Below are positions 2,301 through 54,299 of a stretch of DNA of 64,000 nt, one piece after another (positions within the stretch are counted from its first letter, which is position 1; each line of letters starts with the position of its first letter). The position numbers were made by a program, and so were the translations under genes. The notes below the pieces were generated by a model. The model searched no databases and was not told the DNA's origin. It saw nothing but the letters and a program-made list of their open reading frames with translations. This DNA comes from Limnochorda pilosa (GTDB lineage Bacteria > Bacillota > Limnochordia > Limnochordales > Limnochordaceae). The stretch lies in NCBI RefSeq assembly GCF_001544015.1, contig NZ_AP014924.1, positions 682,001 through 746,000 of the forward strand, written 5' to 3'.

Positions 2301-3398
2301 TCACCTCTCCACGCTGGTATCGGAGGAGTTGGGGCGGTGCGCGGCCCGGTTCTGAGCGCGCCGGGCGGCGGTGGCGCCTGCGTGCACGGCGGCGGCCCCG
2401 ACGGCCGCGCCCACGACCGCCGCACCCACCCGGTCCGGGTTCCGGCCCAGGGCCGAGGCGGGAACGTCGGCCAGCTTGGTGTAGAAGGGGCCCTGGTCCC
2501 AGAAGCCGGCGGCGGAGCAGCCGAGGCACGGGTGGCCCGACTGGATCGGATAGCTGGTGCCCCCGTTCCAGCGGAGGAGCGCGCACGCGTTGTAGGTGGT
2601 CGGCCCCTTGCACCCCAGCTTGTAAAGGCACCAGCCCTGGCGGTATCCCTCGTCGTCGAAGGACTCGGCGAAGAGCCCCGCGTCGAAGTAGGCCCGGCGC
2701 ACGCACGTGTCGTGCACCCGCTTGCGGTAGAAGGCGAGGGGGCGTCCCTGGCGGTCCAGCTCGGGCGGGCGCCCGAACGAGATCAGGTGAACGACGACCC
2801 CTGCGATCACCTCGGCGATGGGCGGGCAGCCGGGCACCTGGATCACGGGCTTCCCGCGCAGCACTGCGGGGACCCCGCTCGCTCCCGTGGGATTGGGGTT
2901 CGCCGACTGCACGCACCCCCACGCGGCGCAGTTCCCGTACGCGATGACGGCGGCGGCGCCCTCGGCCTCCTCCCGCAGGATGTCCAGCGCTGAGCGGCCG
3001 CCGATGGTGCAGTAGGCGGGGTCACCGGTGGGCACGCTGCCCTCCACGCACAGGATGTACTGCCCTCGGTACGTCTCCATGGTGCGGGCGGCCAGCTCCT
3101 CGGCCCGATGACCGGACGGGGCCATGAGGAGCTCGTCGTAGTCCAAAGAGATCATGTCGAGGATGATGTCGCCAACGAGAGGGTGCGAGGCGCGGATGAG
3201 CGACTCGCTGCAACACGTGCACTCCTGGAAATGGCGCCAGATGACCGGGGGACGCGGCTGGTTTTCAAGGGCCCGGGCGATCCGGGGGACCACCGAAGCG
3301 TGGAGACCCAGAGTCGCTGCGGCGGCGGTGCAGAAGCGCAGGAAGTCCCGCCGCGAGAGCCCCTTGGATTGGAAGAGGTCCCATACGGTACCAGCCAA
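2301..3398 (-). CDS. hyaA: [NiFe] hydrogenase small subunit with Tat signal
   Basis: This is the iron-sulphur subunit that carries electrons from the Ni-Fe site to cytochrome b. A twin-arginine motif (SRRDFL, residues 15-20) followed by a hydrophobic stretch shows export of the folded dimer. The cluster-ligand segments CTCCSES, GNCAAWGC and PGCPP are present, as is the distal/medial region HDTCVRR...GWCLYKLGCKG...NACALLRWN...GHPCLGCS. The C-terminus has an alanine/valine-rich helix that could be a membrane anchor. The start is ambiguous. AGGAGG (3412-3407) overlaps a GTG (3407) and lies only 2 bases from an ATG (3404), but is 8 bases from TTG 3398, which I prefer; it gives 365 residues. Confidence 0.93.
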   Translation of the reverse strand: MAGTVWDLFQSKGLSRRDFLRFCTAAAATLGLHASVVPRIARALENQPRPPVIWRHFQECTCCSESLIRASHPLVGDIILDMISLDYDELLMAPSGHRAEELAARTMETYRGQYILCVEGSVPTGDPAYCTIGGRSALDILREEAEGAAAVIAYGNCAAWGCVQSANPNPTGASGVPAVLRGKPVIQVPGCPPIAEVIAGVVVHLISFGRPPELDRQGRPLAFYRKRVHDTCVRRAYFDAGLFAESFDDEGYRQGWCLYKLGCKGPTTYNACALLRWNGGTSYPIQSGHPCLGCSAAGFWDQGPFYTKLADVPASALGRNPDRVGAAVVGAAVGAAAVHAGATAARRAQNRAAHRPNSSDTSVER

Positions 3399-13172: not shown

Positions 13173-14663
13173 ATGGACCCAAGCGTCGTGTTCACGCTCT
13201 CCGTCGCTGCGGTGGTCTTGTGCGCGGGGATCTTTTCCACCAAGCTCGCCTCTCGCATCGGTGTCCCGGCGCTGGTGCTCTTCATCGCTGCCGGCATGGT
13301 CCTGGGCAGCGACGTGCTGGGACTGATCTACTTCGATGACGCACGGCTGGCCCAGCTGGTGGCCACCGCCGCGCTGGTCGTGATCCTCTTCGAGGGCGGC
13401 CTCCAGACCCGCTGGTCGCAGATGCGGCGCATCCTGGCTCCTTCCGTGACGCTGGCCACCCTGGGCGTGGTGGTCACCGTGGTCATCACGGGAGTCTTCG
13501 CCTGGAGAACGCTGGACCTGGACATTCCGATGGCCATGCTGCTGGCGGCCACCGTGGGCTCCACCGATGCGGCCGCCATCTTCGCCGTCTTGCGGGACCG
13601 GCAGATCAAGCAGCGCCTGAAGGCCACGGTGGAGGCCGAATCAGGCCTGAACGACCCGATGGCCCTCTTCCTGACCCAGATCTTCCTCACGTGGGTCCAG
13701 ACGGGTTCGTTACCCATCGGTCAGGCGATTCTGCTGCTGATTTGGCAGATGGCCGTCGGCCTGGCCATCGGTCTGGCGATGGGGAGGCTGGTCTCCCTGG
13801 TGGTCCTTCGGGCCCGCTTCGACTCGGGCGGCCTCTACCCTCTCCTCCTCCTTGCCAACGCCCTCCTCACCTTCGCTGTCGCCACATGGGTCCAGGGCAG
13901 CGGGATCGTGGCCGTCTACGTGCTCGGCATCGTCTTGGGCGGCTCGGACCTTCCCTACCGGCAGAGCAGCATTCGATTCCACGAGGGCACGGCCTCGCTT
14001 GCTCAGATCATCATGTTCAGCCTTTTGGGCCTTCTGGTCTTCCCGAGCCGTATGGTGCCGGTCATCGTTCCCGGCCTTCTCTTGGCTGCGGGGCTCATGT
14101 TCATCGCCCGCCCCGTCGCCGTCTGGCTGTGCACTCTCGGGACGGGATACAGTAAGCAAGAGATCCTGCTCCTCGCCTGGGCAGGGTTGAAGGGGGCCGT
14201 CCCGATCATCCTGGCGACCTTCCCTCTGGTGGCCGGGGTGCCGCAGAGCGACCTCATCTTCCACATGGTCTTCTTCGTGGTGCTCACGTCCGCTCTGATC
14301 CAGGGATCGTCCATCTCCCTCCTGGCCAGACGACTCGGCCTGGTGGAGGCCACGTCGAGGCCCAAGCCCATCTCCCTCGAGCTGATCGCCGTGGAGAAGT
14401 CCAACGCCGACCTCATCGAGGTGGAGATCACGCCGGGGACCGACGCGGAGGGCAAGCAGCTTGCGCAGTTGAACCTCCCTGCGAACGTCACCGTCAGTGC
14501 CATCGTCCGCCACGACAAGGTGGTCACGCCCCGAGGCGTCACCCGTCTGGAGGCTGGCGACATCCTCTTCGTCCTGGCTGAGAGAGGTCAGCGGGAGCAC
14601 GTGACGGACTTCTTCGCGGGCGAGGAGGAGTTGCCTGCGCCTGGCAGCGCTCCATCGACGTAG
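13173..14663 (+). CDS. CPA1-type potassium(sodium)/proton antiporter with TrkA-C domain
   Basis: A 496-residue antiporter of the CvrA/NhaP2 type. It has about 12 hydrophobic segments, with the family stretch VILFEGGLQTRW, the ion-path sequence AESGLNDPMALFLT, and WAGLKGAVPIILATFPLVAG. From about residue 390 a soluble RCK/TrkA-C domain follows (LIEVEITPGTDAEGKQLAQL...LEAGDILFVLAERG), which in relatives binds nucleotides to gate transport. ATG 13173 follows AGAGGTG. A 278-base gap precedes it with no recognisable riboswitch. It is likely monocistronic. Confidence 0.93.
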   Translation: MDPSVVFTLSVAAVVLCAGIFSTKLASRIGVPALVLFIAAGMVLGSDVLGLIYFDDARLAQLVATAALVVILFEGGLQTRWSQMRRILAPSVTLATLGVVVTVVITGVFAWRTLDLDIPMAMLLAATVGSTDAAAIFAVLRDRQIKQRLKATVEAESGLNDPMALFLTQIFLTWVQTGSLPIGQAILLLIWQMAVGLAIGLAMGRLVSLVVLRARFDSGGLYPLLLLANALLTFAVATWVQGSGIVAVYVLGIVLGGSDLPYRQSSIRFHEGTASLAQIIMFSLLGLLVFPSRMVPVIVPGLLLAAGLMFIARPVAVWLCTLGTGYSKQEILLLAWAGLKGAVPIILATFPLVAGVPQSDLIFHMVFFVVLTSALIQGSSISLLARRLGLVEATSRPKPISLELIAVEKSNADLIEVEITPGTDAEGKQLAQLNLPANVTVSAIVRHDKVVTPRGVTRLEAGDILFVLAERGQREHVTDFFAGEEELPAPGSAPST

Positions 14664-50351: not shown

Positions 50352-50429
50352 CCGCGGGCCCTCCCCAGCCTGACCGTGGGCGTCCCTCTCCCGGGGGCAG
50401 CTCTCGTGGTTTTCCATCACCATGACGGC

Positions 50430-50802
50430 CGGCCGGACCAGCCTGGACGCCAGAGCGAGGCCCCCCGGCCGCCCGGTGGCCTCCACCACCACGTCGCAAC
50501 GGGCGGAGAGCGCCCCGACCACCGTCACCCGGTCCGTGGGGCGCACGTGCACTTGGTCCACAACCTCCAGGGCTGCGGCCAGGGGCTCGCTGAAGACCGC
50601 CTGGCGGTCCGGAACGCCCTCGGGCACCGGGTGGAGGTTGGCTTCGGGGAGCACGCAGTACTCGGCGAAGGCGCCGTCCCAGTCCCTGATCCCCAGGACC
50701 CTCACGTTGCGGCAGTGCCTTCAACGCCTCACCCGGGCCCGGCTCCGGGATCGGACGCTCCACGAGCCGGACCTGGCCCGCCTGGACCGCCAGTGCCTGC
50801 AT
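50430..50802 (-). pseudogene. zinc-dependent alcohol dehydrogenase (MDR), decayed with internal deletions
   Basis: Pieces of a medium-chain dehydrogenase lie in order but in different frames. The start is ALAVQAGQVRLVERPIPEPG (from ATG 50802). The frame then changes to RVLGIRDWDGAFAEYCVLPE, PDRQAVFSEPLAAALEVVDQ and VHVRPTDRVTVVG. A jump follows to CDVVVEATGRPGGLALASRL, after which the sequence no longer resembles the family. The segment with the GHE motif and the zinc-binding cysteines is missing, and so is the glycine-rich NAD loop. At least two deletions are needed to explain this, so no active enzyme can be made. Confidence 0.85.
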
Positions 50803-51053
50803 GACCCCAGCTCCCTGCCAGCGCGATGGTTAAACCGGAGAGACGCCTTCACGGGTGCCAGGGCAACTCCTTCCCCGCCGGCGCCCTTACGACCCTTTCC
50901 GGCGACGGGGCCGTCGGACCGGCAGGGTTTCGTTGAGATACAGAATTCCTGTCAAATTGGGACGACCCCCTCAAGCCCGTGGCAAGGCTGTCGATAACCA
51001 ATCGTAGCACGGAGAAGTTCCCGGGCACGGGCGTGCCCGTGGGAGGAGTGTCC
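50803..51053. other. intergenic region before the agr-like locus
   Basis: About 250 bases without a gene. GC content falls sharply from about 50930 on. ACAG-N5-CTGT (in TACAGAATTCCTGTC, near 50940) is a short inverted repeat that might be regulatory. No confident -35/-10 pair was found, although this region should hold the agr promoter. Confidence 0.45.
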
Positions 51054-51707
51054 GTGGAGCGCTTGGCTGACCGCATGGGCCGGTGGCTCGCCTCCGAGTT
51101 CGACTGGACGCCCGAGCAGCAAGAGGTCGCAACCTTCTCTCTGGTCCTCGTCGTCTCCACGTCGTTCACTCTGCTTCTTATCCTTCTCTTGTCCTGGGCT
51201 GCAGGTGTCCTGGCGGAAGCGCTCATCATGGCCGGAACGTCGGCTCTGCTGAGGATGTTCGGCGGAGGAGCGCATCTCTCGGGTGGATGGCGATGCGGCT
51301 GGGCTAGCGCACTCGCGGTGACAGGTATGGCCCTTGTCGCGCATGGCGTCGGACCTGTCGTGGGATCGACCTTGGGGATGGCGACGCCTTGGGTGCTCCC
51401 AGTGACCGGGCTGGCCGTCGCGGTCGTCATGGCCCGACTGGCACCCGTTCCAGCGCCCGAGAAACCCATACGATCTGAACGGCGCCGCCGAAGCCTGCGC
51501 GCGCTGGCCATAGCAGTGAGCGTGACGTGGGGCGGGGCGTGGGCCGTGATCCTGAGCCTCCGGGAAGTTCAGCCTGCCCTCTGGCTCGCCTCGGCCTTCG
51601 GACTGTTCCAGGAGACGCTCTCGGTAACCCCTTCGGGAGGACGCGCCGCTCGTTGGCTTGACCGGACGATAGCACAGGTTTTCATGAAAGGAGGTGAGAC
51701 GGCGTGA
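51054..51707 (+). CDS. agrB: AgrB-like accessory gene regulator, peptide-processing membrane protease
   Basis: A 217-residue membrane cysteine endopeptidase that trims and cyclises the AgrD peptide. The catalytic pair is His74 and Cys81 in RMFGGGAHLSGGWRCGWAS, with the same H-x6-C spacing as staphylococcal AgrB. Around it are about five or six helices (LVLVVSTSFTLLLILLLSWA and others). GTG 51054 is set by GGAGGAG upstream. It overlaps the peptide gene by 4 bases (GTGA). Base composition here is near 53-60% GC, well below the flanks, which suggests the locus arrived by transfer. Confidence 0.92.
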   Translation: MERLADRMGRWLASEFDWTPEQQEVATFSLVLVVSTSFTLLLILLLSWAAGVLAEALIMAGTSALLRMFGGGAHLSGGWRCGWASALAVTGMALVAHGVGPVVGSTLGMATPWVLPVTGLAVAVVMARLAPVPAPEKPIRSERRRRSLRALAIAVSVTWGGAWAVILSLREVQPALWLASAFGLFQETLSVTPSGGRAARWLDRTIAQVFMKGGETA

Positions 51708-51832
51708 AGAGAATGCTTGGACCGATGATCCTGGCCCTTCTTGGGTTCTTGGCCGCCACGAACGTAACATACGCGTGCGCCTGGTTCTGGTACCAGCCAA
51801 AGCCGCCGAAGGCTTTGATGGCGACTAAGTAG
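51704..51832 (+). CDS. agrD: AgrD-like cyclic lactone autoinducer peptide precursor
   Basis: A 42-residue precursor. An amphipathic or hydrophobic leader (GPMILALLGFLAATNVTYA) is followed by Cys25 and the core CAWFW, then the recognition tail YQPKPPKALMATK. Aligned with staphylococcal AgrD (core of Cys plus four, then two residues and Pro-x-x-Pro), the predicted product is a thiolactone ring of Cys-Ala-Trp-Phe-Trp with a short N-terminal tail. The tail is basic, unlike the acidic tail of many AgrD proteins. AAAGGAGGTGAG upstream is the best ribosome site in the locus, fitting high expression. Confidence 0.93.
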   Translation: MKRMLGPMILALLGFLAATNVTYACAWFWYQPKPPKALMATK

Positions 51833-51900
51833 GGAGCGAAGGCTGACATGGCGGTCAGCGGCGGCGCGTCATCATCGAAGGGCCTTCGGGAGTGCTCCGA

Positions 51901-52395
51901 ATGGCCCGCTGGGTTCTGATCTACCTGCTCGGCTTTCTGCCACAGACGTTTCTCCTTCTCTACGCTGCGCTCGGGCTCGTGGGCGCACGCGCTGGCTCAC
52001 GGCGCCTCGCAGTCCCGGCTGCGACACTGGGGCTGGTTGCGCTCATGCTGCGCCCCACCTTGTCCCAAGGTTGGTATATTCCGGTTTCCATGGCGATCCT
52101 CGTGGCAAGTCTCATGCTTTTCAGACTGGCGTCTACCTTGGAGGCCGTCGCGGCGGCAGCCATCGGTTTCATCCTCATAGCTGCAGGTGACCTCTTTGTC
52201 ATGGCTCCCACCTTCTACCTCCTTGGTTTCAGCTACGATCAAGTAGTGGAATCCCCTCGGCTGTACGTCGTCTTTGGCTCCCTGGAGGGAACGTTCCTCG
52301 CAGTTGCTGCCCTTCTGGTGCGGGTGAAGGCGGTTACTGTCGTATCGATCTCGCGTTGGGAGAAGGTTCTAGCTCAAAGGAGGGCAGGCAAGTGA
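51901..52395 (+). CDS. polytopic membrane protein of the agr-like locus, probable detached sensor domain
   Basis: A 164-residue protein with about five or six hydrophobic helices: WVLIYLLGFLPQTFLLLYAA, LAVPAATLGLVALML, YIPVSMAILVASLMLFRLAS, AVAAAAIGFILIAAGDLFVM and VFGSLEGTFLAVAALLVRV. Its length and topology resemble the membrane sensor half of AgrC, and the next gene, overlapping by 4 bases (GTGA), is a kinase with only two helices. I infer that the two proteins together do the job of one AgrC. ATG 51901 is favoured by GGAG 8 bases upstream; GTG 51892 is the alternative. No known signature is visible. Confidence 0.78.
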   Translation: MARWVLIYLLGFLPQTFLLLYAALGLVGARAGSRRLAVPAATLGLVALMLRPTLSQGWYIPVSMAILVASLMLFRLASTLEAVAAAAIGFILIAAGDLFVMAPTFYLLGFSYDQVVESPRLYVVFGSLEGTFLAVAALLVRVKAVTVVSISRWEKVLAQRRAGK

Positions 52396-53339
52396 GGAGG
52401 TCCTCACAAGAGGCTGCCGTTTCGCTTTCGGTATGGATTGTGATTATCATCCTTGCATTGGTTGCCGTGCTGACCTCGGGTCTCGCTGCCCTGCTTCCGC
52501 TCCTCATCAAACGTGAGGCGAGTGCGGGCGTGGACTTCGTCAGCGCCGTGTTCCCGACCATGGTCGCGGTCTTGGTGGCGTTTCTGGCGCTGTGGGCAAG
52601 CCGCCTGCTCATGGAGGAGGCGAAACGAGAGGCTGCAAGGGACTTGGAGCTCGCCCAGATGCGCTCCGACCTCGCCCTGGCCCAGAAAGCCCGCGAGCAG
52701 CGCCACGACCTCCTGAACCACCTCACCGTGGTCTCCGCCCTCATCCAGACGGGCTCGGCGGACCAGGCGCTCGCCTATCTCAGGAGGGCCACGTACGAGC
52801 AGCCGGAGGAGGCCGCCTCCGGCGCACCCGCCGCCCAGATCGACCCCGGATTCATCCTCGGACTCATGGGGCAGAAGCTTGCTCAGGCGGCACGGGCGGG
52901 TGTTGCGCTCGAGATCCACGTCCAGAACGAATCGGACCACCTCTGCATTCCGGACGTGGTCGCAGCGCGCATCCTGGGCAACCTCACCGACAATGCGATC
53001 GATGCGGCGGGGGAGGCAGGGGAAGGAACGGGGAAGGTCACGGTGGAAATGGTGCTGTCAGCCGGGCGTTGCCGGTTTCGCGTGCGGAACAACGGCTCGG
53101 TCATCACTCAGCAGCAGCTCAGCCGGATCTTCGCGGCGGGGGAGAGCACCAAGGGCGGGCAGCACCAGGGGCTGGGACTGCACATCGTCCAGCAGCTCGT
53201 CCGGGAATACGAGGGTTCCCTGTGCGTCCAAAGCGACGCGTCGACGGGTACGGAGTTCGACGTGCGGTTCGAGCCGGGCACCCGCCTTGCGAAGAACGGT
53301 TCGGCTCACGGGGGGCTGCACCGCCCGTTCCACTGGTAG
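52392..53339 (+). CDS. sensor histidine kinase with SpoOB/AgrC-type phosphoacceptor
   Basis: A 315-residue kinase. Two helices (SLSVWIVIIILALVAVLTSG and VFPTMVAVLVAFLALWAS) lead into a coiled-coil linker. The phosphoacceptor EQRHDLLNHLTVVSALIQTG (His105 in RHDLLNHL) is the AgrC/SpoOB (HPK10) form. The ATP-binding domain has the N-box LGNLTDNAIDAAGEAGEGTG and the G-box KGGQHQGLGLHIVQQLVREY. GTG 52392 overlaps the membrane-protein stop. No response regulator follows: the next gene is a YbaK-type protein. Composition rises back to normal GC within this gene. Confidence 0.92.
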   Translation: MRRSSQEAAVSLSVWIVIIILALVAVLTSGLAALLPLLIKREASAGVDFVSAVFPTMVAVLVAFLALWASRLLMEEAKREAARDLELAQMRSDLALAQKAREQRHDLLNHLTVVSALIQTGSADQALAYLRRATYEQPEEAASGAPAAQIDPGFILGLMGQKLAQAARAGVALEIHVQNESDHLCIPDVVAARILGNLTDNAIDAAGEAGEGTGKVTVEMVLSAGRCRFRVRNNGSVITQQQLSRIFAAGESTKGGQHQGLGLHIVQQLVREYEGSLCVQSDASTGTEFDVRFEPGTRLAKNGSAHGGLHRPFHW

Positions 53340-53896: not shown

Positions 53897-54133
53897 TCAC
53901 GGCTTCGGCTGCTGCATGGCCTGCTGGTAAACCTTGTACTGCGGCTCCTCCGCCTCCGTCTGGTTCACGCGGGAGCGCAGGGGCTGGATGATCTCACGGT
54001 CCATGACGTCGGCCAGGTGGCTGTAGAGGGCTTTGGCTTGAGGGTTCTCGGTGTCGAGGGCGAAGCTCTTGAACTGGGCCAGTGCTCCCTCGCACTGCAC
54101 GAGTGTCTGGTGGAGCTTGGTACCAACGGTCAT
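53897..54133 (-). CDS. DUF1657 protein
   Basis: A 78-residue all-helical protein. The opening TVGTKLHQTLVQCEGALAQF followed by KSFALDTENPQAKALYSHLA is the DUF1657 signature. In endospore formers such proteins are often encoded with SpoVA-type genes, suggesting a sporulation link, but none is adjacent here. ATG 54133 has GAGGAGG 7-8 bases upstream. Confidence 0.88.
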   Translation of the reverse strand: MTVGTKLHQTLVQCEGALAQFKSFALDTENPQAKALYSHLADVMDREIIQPLRSRVNQTEAEEPQYKVYQQAMQQPKP

Positions 54134-54299
54134 GGGTGTGCCTCCTCGGTGAAGGGTAAGGGACATGTAGCCCTCCAGAGTGTCTCCGGGTGGAGGGGCA
54201 TGCTCTCTAAGAAGGATTGCCGGGATTGACAGGTGCTGACGCCGCCGCAGCACGGATCGCCGGTAGGGCCCGGGGGGCCCGAGGCCTGCGGGCCCGACG

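Follow-up and report, generated by a model that had tools for sequence, protein, structure and literature searches.

How does an agr quorum-sensing locus perceive its peptide when the sensor appears as two proteins, and which regulator receives the signal when none is encoded beside it? Both questions are raised by a locus of Limnochorda pilosa that lies within the 64-kb stretch of DNA analyzed here as a whole (the window, to which coordinates refer unless a genome position is given). The original prediction described four agr-like genes at this place, joined in pairs by two 4-base overlaps, and we recovered all of them with the corresponding domains and with exact overlaps (GTGA at 51704-51707 for agrB and agrD, and GTGA at 52392-52395 for the 164-residue membrane protein, called Mem below, and the kinase). 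The features of the locus are as follows.

51054-51707, plus strand: agrB, AgrD-processing membrane peptidase; GTG start, with a GTG at 51048 as another possible start
51704-51832, plus strand: agrD, 42-residue cyclic-peptide precursor; 4-base overlap with agrB
51776-51790, plus strand: predicted mature peptide core, Cys25-Ala-Trp-Phe-Trp29, numbered as in Clostridium thermocellum AgrD
51901-52395, plus strand: Mem, 164-residue five-helix membrane protein, putative stand-alone AgrC-type receptor domain (from homologs, fused forms and a structural model)
52392-53339, plus strand: two-helix Spo0B/AgrC-type histidine kinase with SPOB_a and HATPase_c domains; 4-base overlap with Mem
52704-52706, plus strand: codon of the phosphoacceptor His105, within RHDLLNHL of the kinase (motif search and sequence)

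Conservation of the four-gene operon

A Shine-Dalgarno-like stretch was found 5' of each of the four genes, and a promoter and terminator scan returned nothing above chance. In the sister genome of the same genus, the order is MFS-agrB-agrD-Mem-kinase-HemQ. The four-gene operon is not a chance arrangement: the same genes occur in the same order in a second genome of the genus. The sister-species locus is without the chemotaxis receptor (MCP) and YbaK genes found on either side of the operon in the window, and we therefore delimit the operon to the four genes alone, with YbaK a mere neighbor. YbaK was ruled out as an operon member, its gene being missing from that place in the sister species.

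Two minor features were observed around the operon. Upstream of agrB and after the chemotaxis receptor gene, the minus strand carries a remnant resembling a zinc-dependent alcohol dehydrogenase (50390-50802), which is broken over two frames as judged from its translations. A small DUF1657 protein (E = 2.6e-13) is encoded downstream of YbaK on the opposite, minus strand (53897-54163).

AgrB, AgrD and the predicted peptide

AgrB matched PF04647 above the cut-off (E = 2e-24) and is the single AgrB of the whole genome. Its catalytic stretch, GGAHLSGGWRC, has the G-G-x-H-x6-C spacing common to 72 of the 76 AgrB frames of related loci. AgrD matched TIGR04223 above the cut-off (E = 4.9e-9) and has both a ring Cys and the conserved QP-x-x-P tail, reading ...VTYA/CAWFW/YQPKPPKAL... 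with A24, C25, W29, Y30 and P35 as its marked residues. Most related AgrDs retain the pattern (C/S/T)-x4-(Y/H)QP.

The AgrD of C. thermocellum, also a member of the Bacillota, gives rise to a cyclic pentapeptide running from S25 to F29 that was confirmed by mass spectrometry, with cuts between A24 and S25 and between F29 and Y30 and with a conserved P35 (PMC5322536). Because the corresponding residues carry the same numbers in the window AgrD, we predict by analogy a mature signal consisting of the five-residue thiolactone Cys-Ala-Trp-Phe-Trp. The two systems differ in that the ring of C. thermocellum is a Ser lactone, as opposed to the predicted Cys thiolactone of the window, and in that no agr operon was found in C. 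thermocellum.

Mem and the kinase compared with AgrC

The window kinase is the sole SPOB_a kinase of the genome (SPOB_a, E = 6e-9; HATPase_c, E = 2.2e-18), and its H-box (RHDLLNH), N-box (NLTDNA) and G-box (GLGL) are intact. Hydropathy assigns two membrane helices to the kinase and five to Mem. An AlphaFold2 model of Mem, built from 12 sequences, reached a mean pLDDT of 81.7 and contained long helices at residues 2-27, 33-56, 59-73, 79-108 and 119-143, followed by a short helix at the end. Mem matched no family of Pfam or NCBIfam, 12 homologs were likewise without a significant match, and no PDB entry matched Mem by sequence. The fold search yielded no meaningful match (the best Foldseek hit had E = 1.4, and the top Z score, against small helical bundles, was 5.6), and absence from such a fold list excludes nothing.

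A profile built from 13 Mem proteins (A1) hit 16 of the 73 genomes searched within the class and, at the level of the phylum, 152 of 398 sampled genomes. Most of these hits were stand-alone frames of about 150-210 residues, and a minority belonged to frames 440-496 residues long; where the DNA is G+C-rich, some long frames only reflect open sequence upstream (for example, L180). In the fused proteins, the Mem profile covered residues ~5-170 (E down to 1e-56) and a second profile, built from split kinases only, covered residues ~160-455, so that the two lie end to end without overlap. The C-terminal parts of the fused proteins consist of SPOB_a and HATPase domains, and hydropathy gives the whole proteins seven helices in a 5+2 arrangement. 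The window Mem is 49% identical to the Mem of the sister species, and direct BLAST comparison with the fused proteins was weak (best E = 0.001); we regard it as a divergent member on the basis of the family profile and the sister-species protein.

Several of the fusions (L175-L179 and L185) stand with agrB, agrD and a LytTR regulator, forming a canonical agrBDCA set. We compared the staphylococcal AgrC membrane domain through its NCBIfam profile only, which aligned with fusions L178, L175 and L071 over AgrC positions 12-395, 16-398 and 44-396, respectively (E = 5e-18 for the 12-395 match and 2.4e-19 for the 16-398 match). These matches score below the equivalog cut-off of the model, which means that they show homology and not identity with staphylococcal AgrC. 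The other kinase families listed matched only the C-terminal halves of the fusions. On the window kinase, the AgrC profile aligned from position 165 to 394 only, and Mem is 164 residues long. Since the profile spans the fusions nearly whole but the window kinase only from position 165, Mem and the kinase are probably an AgrC split into two proteins.

An AgrC in the strict sense is one protein with six or seven helices and an HPK10 kinase; the window has two proteins, with five and two helices. By homology, Mem corresponds to the membrane domain at the N terminus of AgrC-type kinases, a region that in the fusions is covered by the staphylococcal AgrC profile as well. This upholds the split sensor proposed originally and runs counter to the 164-residue protein belonging to an unrelated family. 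Searches of phages and plasmids for a named AgrC returned only matches to the kinase domain and a single weak match in a plasmid.

Gene order and partner enzymes across bacteria

We annotated 92 loci, 73 of which contain a stand-alone Mem, together with ten further named loci from a narrower contig scan (mainly Moorella); the sample is biased to high-scoring matches, and its proportions are not natural frequencies. Of the 73 stand-alone loci, 64 encode AgrB or AgrD no more than 3 kb away on the same strand. The partner enzyme varied: it was a Spo0B-type kinase without a nearby regulator (26 loci, 18 of them with agrBD and 3 also near an HD-GYP gene), a GGDEF/HD-GYP protein without a kinase (23 loci), a Spo0B-type kinase with a LytTR regulator (13 loci) and a HisKA-type kinase (8 loci, one also with HD-GYP), while the 3 loci in which no partner enzyme was seen are all near a contig end. 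Pfam searches confirmed the GGDEF and HD domains, the LytTR regulators and the HisKA or hybrid kinases in example loci. Members of 14 GTDB families have the GGDEF/HD-GYP form.

Among named species, the split form without a regulator occurs, for example, in Moorella thermoacetica, M. mulderi, M. stamsii and M. sulfitireducens. The loci of Moorella and related genera (L101-L105) share with the window the same four gene types, the split receptor and an operon without a regulator, but have the order Mem-kinase-agrB-agrD. In the Moorella-like copy that was read (L029), the AgrD ring begins with Ser, unlike that of the window.

Mem-agrB-agrD also occurs beside a gene for a membrane protein with GGDEF and HD-GYP domains, without a Spo0B-type kinase (L030, L113-L121, L125, L126, L129, L130, L133, L134, L140, L144, L145, L159, L161 and L027). 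It is possible that such loci provide a direct link from agr peptide to c-di-GMP.

Trees were built for the kinases (65 rows) and for Mem (91 rows), both unrooted. All 27 LytTR-linked kinases belonged to a single supported set of 36 rows (97/90); a LytTR neighbor was absent from all of the other 29 rows, which include the window kinase. These patterns indicate that the absence of AgrA is a long-standing trait of the relatives of the window kinase, as opposed to a local loss. Fused versus split states require at least 9 changes in the kinase tree and effector labels at least 19 changes in the Mem tree, in which the window Mem groups (96/84) with GGDEF/HD-GYP-linked Mems. As reconstructed from these sequences, the trees show repeated swapping and fusion or fission.

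The same results bear on an alternative to which we give as much credence as doubt, namely that Mem evolved separately as a modular receptor subunit that joins a Spo0B-type kinase, a GGDEF/HD-GYP protein or a HisKA kinase. The window would then hold the kinase-coupled version, and the fused AgrC kinases would be later or repeated fusions. Stand-alone forms do outnumber fused ones among the matches listed, and both the 23 agrBD-containing loci with GGDEF/HD-GYP but no kinase and the 8 loci with a HisKA kinase are in keeping with modularity, as are the numbers of effector and fused/split changes and the position of the window Mem. Set against this, unrooted trees give no direction of change, domains of ~150 residues give limited tree support, and among the forms seen there was no Mem-GGDEF fusion, leaving gene order as the indication of contact between the two proteins.

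Mem may define a family of stand-alone cyclic-peptide receptor subunits that join Spo0B-type kinases, HisKA kinases or GGDEF/HD-GYP proteins, a proposal whose chances we judge to be evenly balanced; the family lies outside Pfam and NCBIfam, yet occurs in roughly a third of the sampled genomes of the phylum. It was also suggested originally that the two membrane proteins form a new kind of peptide receptor. The suggestion holds only in part: the kinase version appears to be the known AgrC cut in two, and the novelty lies in the receptor half, which belongs to a widespread stand-alone family found with other enzymes too.

Candidate targets of the kinase

No AgrA (LytTR regulator) was found at the locus, as anticipated, and no receiver domain anywhere within the 64-kb window; the same lack of a nearby regulator applies to a whole set of related kinases. 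Across the genome, we detected 34 receiver and 30 HATPase matches. Two LytTR regulators are present, each beside a His_kinase (LytS-type) gene, which rules out a free AgrA elsewhere. With one AgrB, one SPOB_a kinase and both LytTR genes accounted for, an intact AgrC/AgrA pair was not found elsewhere in the genome. The best NCBIfam match of the window kinase was DcuS/MalK, and we considered a free CitB/DcuR-type partner on this account; it was rejected because the sole CitB-like regulator (L098) is overlapped by its own kinase.

The genome encodes two Spo0A paralogs (G000:C1 1695806 region, L094; 2733136 region, L100). Of 11 genomes tested within the class, 10 had two Spo0A, and other tested genomes, outside the class, had at most one. 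All 21 near-complete genomes tested that have the window-like or a related regulator-less architecture encode Spo0A. A Spo0A output would be in keeping with this and with the reduced sporulation of clostridial agrBD mutants cited in PMC10602386. We consider Spo0A the most likely target of the kinase on grounds that are circumstantial, because Spo0A is nearly universal in such bacteria and its presence does not discriminate.

A rather unlikely alternative to Spo0A is another orphan regulator, for example an unpaired one of the NarL type. A few regulators do lack an adjacent kinase, including NarL-type ones near genome positions 1,495,000 and 3,005,000-3,007,500, although the kinases of some seemingly unpaired regulators were perhaps missed by the search. 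NarL-type regulators usually pair with HisKA_3 kinases, and none was linked to the kinase family of the window in the sampled loci, where the partners are LytTR regulators.

Proposed mechanism

Under the split-AgrC reading, AgrB would cut and cyclize AgrD and export the predicted CAWFW thiolactone. The secreted peptide would be bound by Mem, the putative equivalent of helices 1-5 in a fused AgrC, which would sit in the membrane with the two-helix kinase and control its autophosphorylation. The kinase would supply AgrC helices 6-7 with the phosphoacceptor and ATPase parts and would pass its phosphate to a regulator whose gene lies outside the locus. Spo0A, the target of clostridial orphan kinases, is the most likely one. 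A staphylococcal AgrC cut to its last two helices and kinase kept its kinase activity and an approximately two-fold response to peptide (PMC3841183). The second half of a split receptor therefore plausibly works as a kinase alone and, by analogy with the two-fold response, part of the peptide binding may reside in the kinase itself.

The response of this two-helix truncation would also suit a model in which the kinase senses the peptide through its own two helices and Mem is an accessory agr membrane protein (for peptide export, immunity or as an AgrB helper), as would the presence of Mem with AgrB/AgrD even where a Spo0B-type kinase is not nearby. We find this model improbable, since Mem is fused to the kinase in many genomes exactly at the place of the AgrC sensor domain, and nine sampled loci have Mem and a kinase but lack AgrB and AgrD over 3 kb of the same strand, as would be expected of a receptor more than of an export helper. 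It is hardly credible that the locus is a decaying remnant, in which a recent frameshift or a sequencing error disrupted a canonical agrC and agrA was lost: the two halves are adjacent and the larger open frame of the kinase extends upstream of its start, but the same split occurs in many families and in the sister species, each of the two genes has its own start codon and Shine-Dalgarno-like stretch, the catalytic motifs are intact and the regulator-less kinases form long-lived lineages.

Relation to known agr systems

The window locus resembles agrBDCA of Staphylococcus aureus, whose AgrC is an HPK10 kinase, in having AgrB, AgrD and an AgrC-type kinase of the same phosphoacceptor class, and almost the full length of the fused relatives is matched by the staphylococcal AgrC profile. 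It differs in that AgrC appears cut after the fifth helix into two genes and in the lack of a LytTR AgrA. Loci with agrBD but without agrC and agrA are already known (PMC4963840, PMC10602386). Among these, agrBD of C. perfringens with its distant VirS/VirR (PMC4963840) and agrB1D1 of C. difficile, which has no known receptor (PMC10602386), likewise have no agrA at the locus, but their receptor kinase is distant or unknown and in one piece, whereas both receptor halves are within the operon in the window.

A literature search, in which subscription journals were thinly covered, found no paper that describes a two-protein AgrC, the Mem family or a pairing of agrBD with GGDEF/HD-GYP proteins. The receptor of the C. 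difficile Agr1 peptide has been stated to be an open question (PMC10602386). Many clostridia and their relatives have agrBD without agrC and agrA, and the Mem family, which is recognizable by profile and gene order, supplies named receptor candidates for them. If the pairing of Mem with GGDEF/HD-GYP proteins is as proposed, c-di-GMP would be under the direct control of agr-type peptides, with no two-component system in between. The split also makes the receptor mechanism testable, as receptor and kinase can be separately expressed, mutated and swapped.

Atypical Mem loci

Several Mem-like sequences were of unusual origin or arrangement. Plasmid record NZ_CP061968.1, which is unannotated and labeled Klebsiella pneumoniae, contains at 13997-14377 a stretch with weak similarity to Mem (28.9% identity, E = 1e-3) that perhaps reflects contamination. 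The arrangement Mem-kinase-agrB-agrD was present in a metagenome-assembled genome (MAG) labeled Deltaproteobacteria (L107), through either transfer outside the Bacillota or misbinning. Tandem pairs of Mem genes, mostly beside agrBD, were observed at L031, L120, L124, L131, L109, L165 and L122, possibly encoding a heterodimeric receptor or two specificities. At L109, from a Pelotomaculum MAG, one Mem protein (2618-3322) seemingly has two extra membrane helices without a kinase domain, and adjoins a second Mem, agrBD, a kinase and a LytTR regulator.
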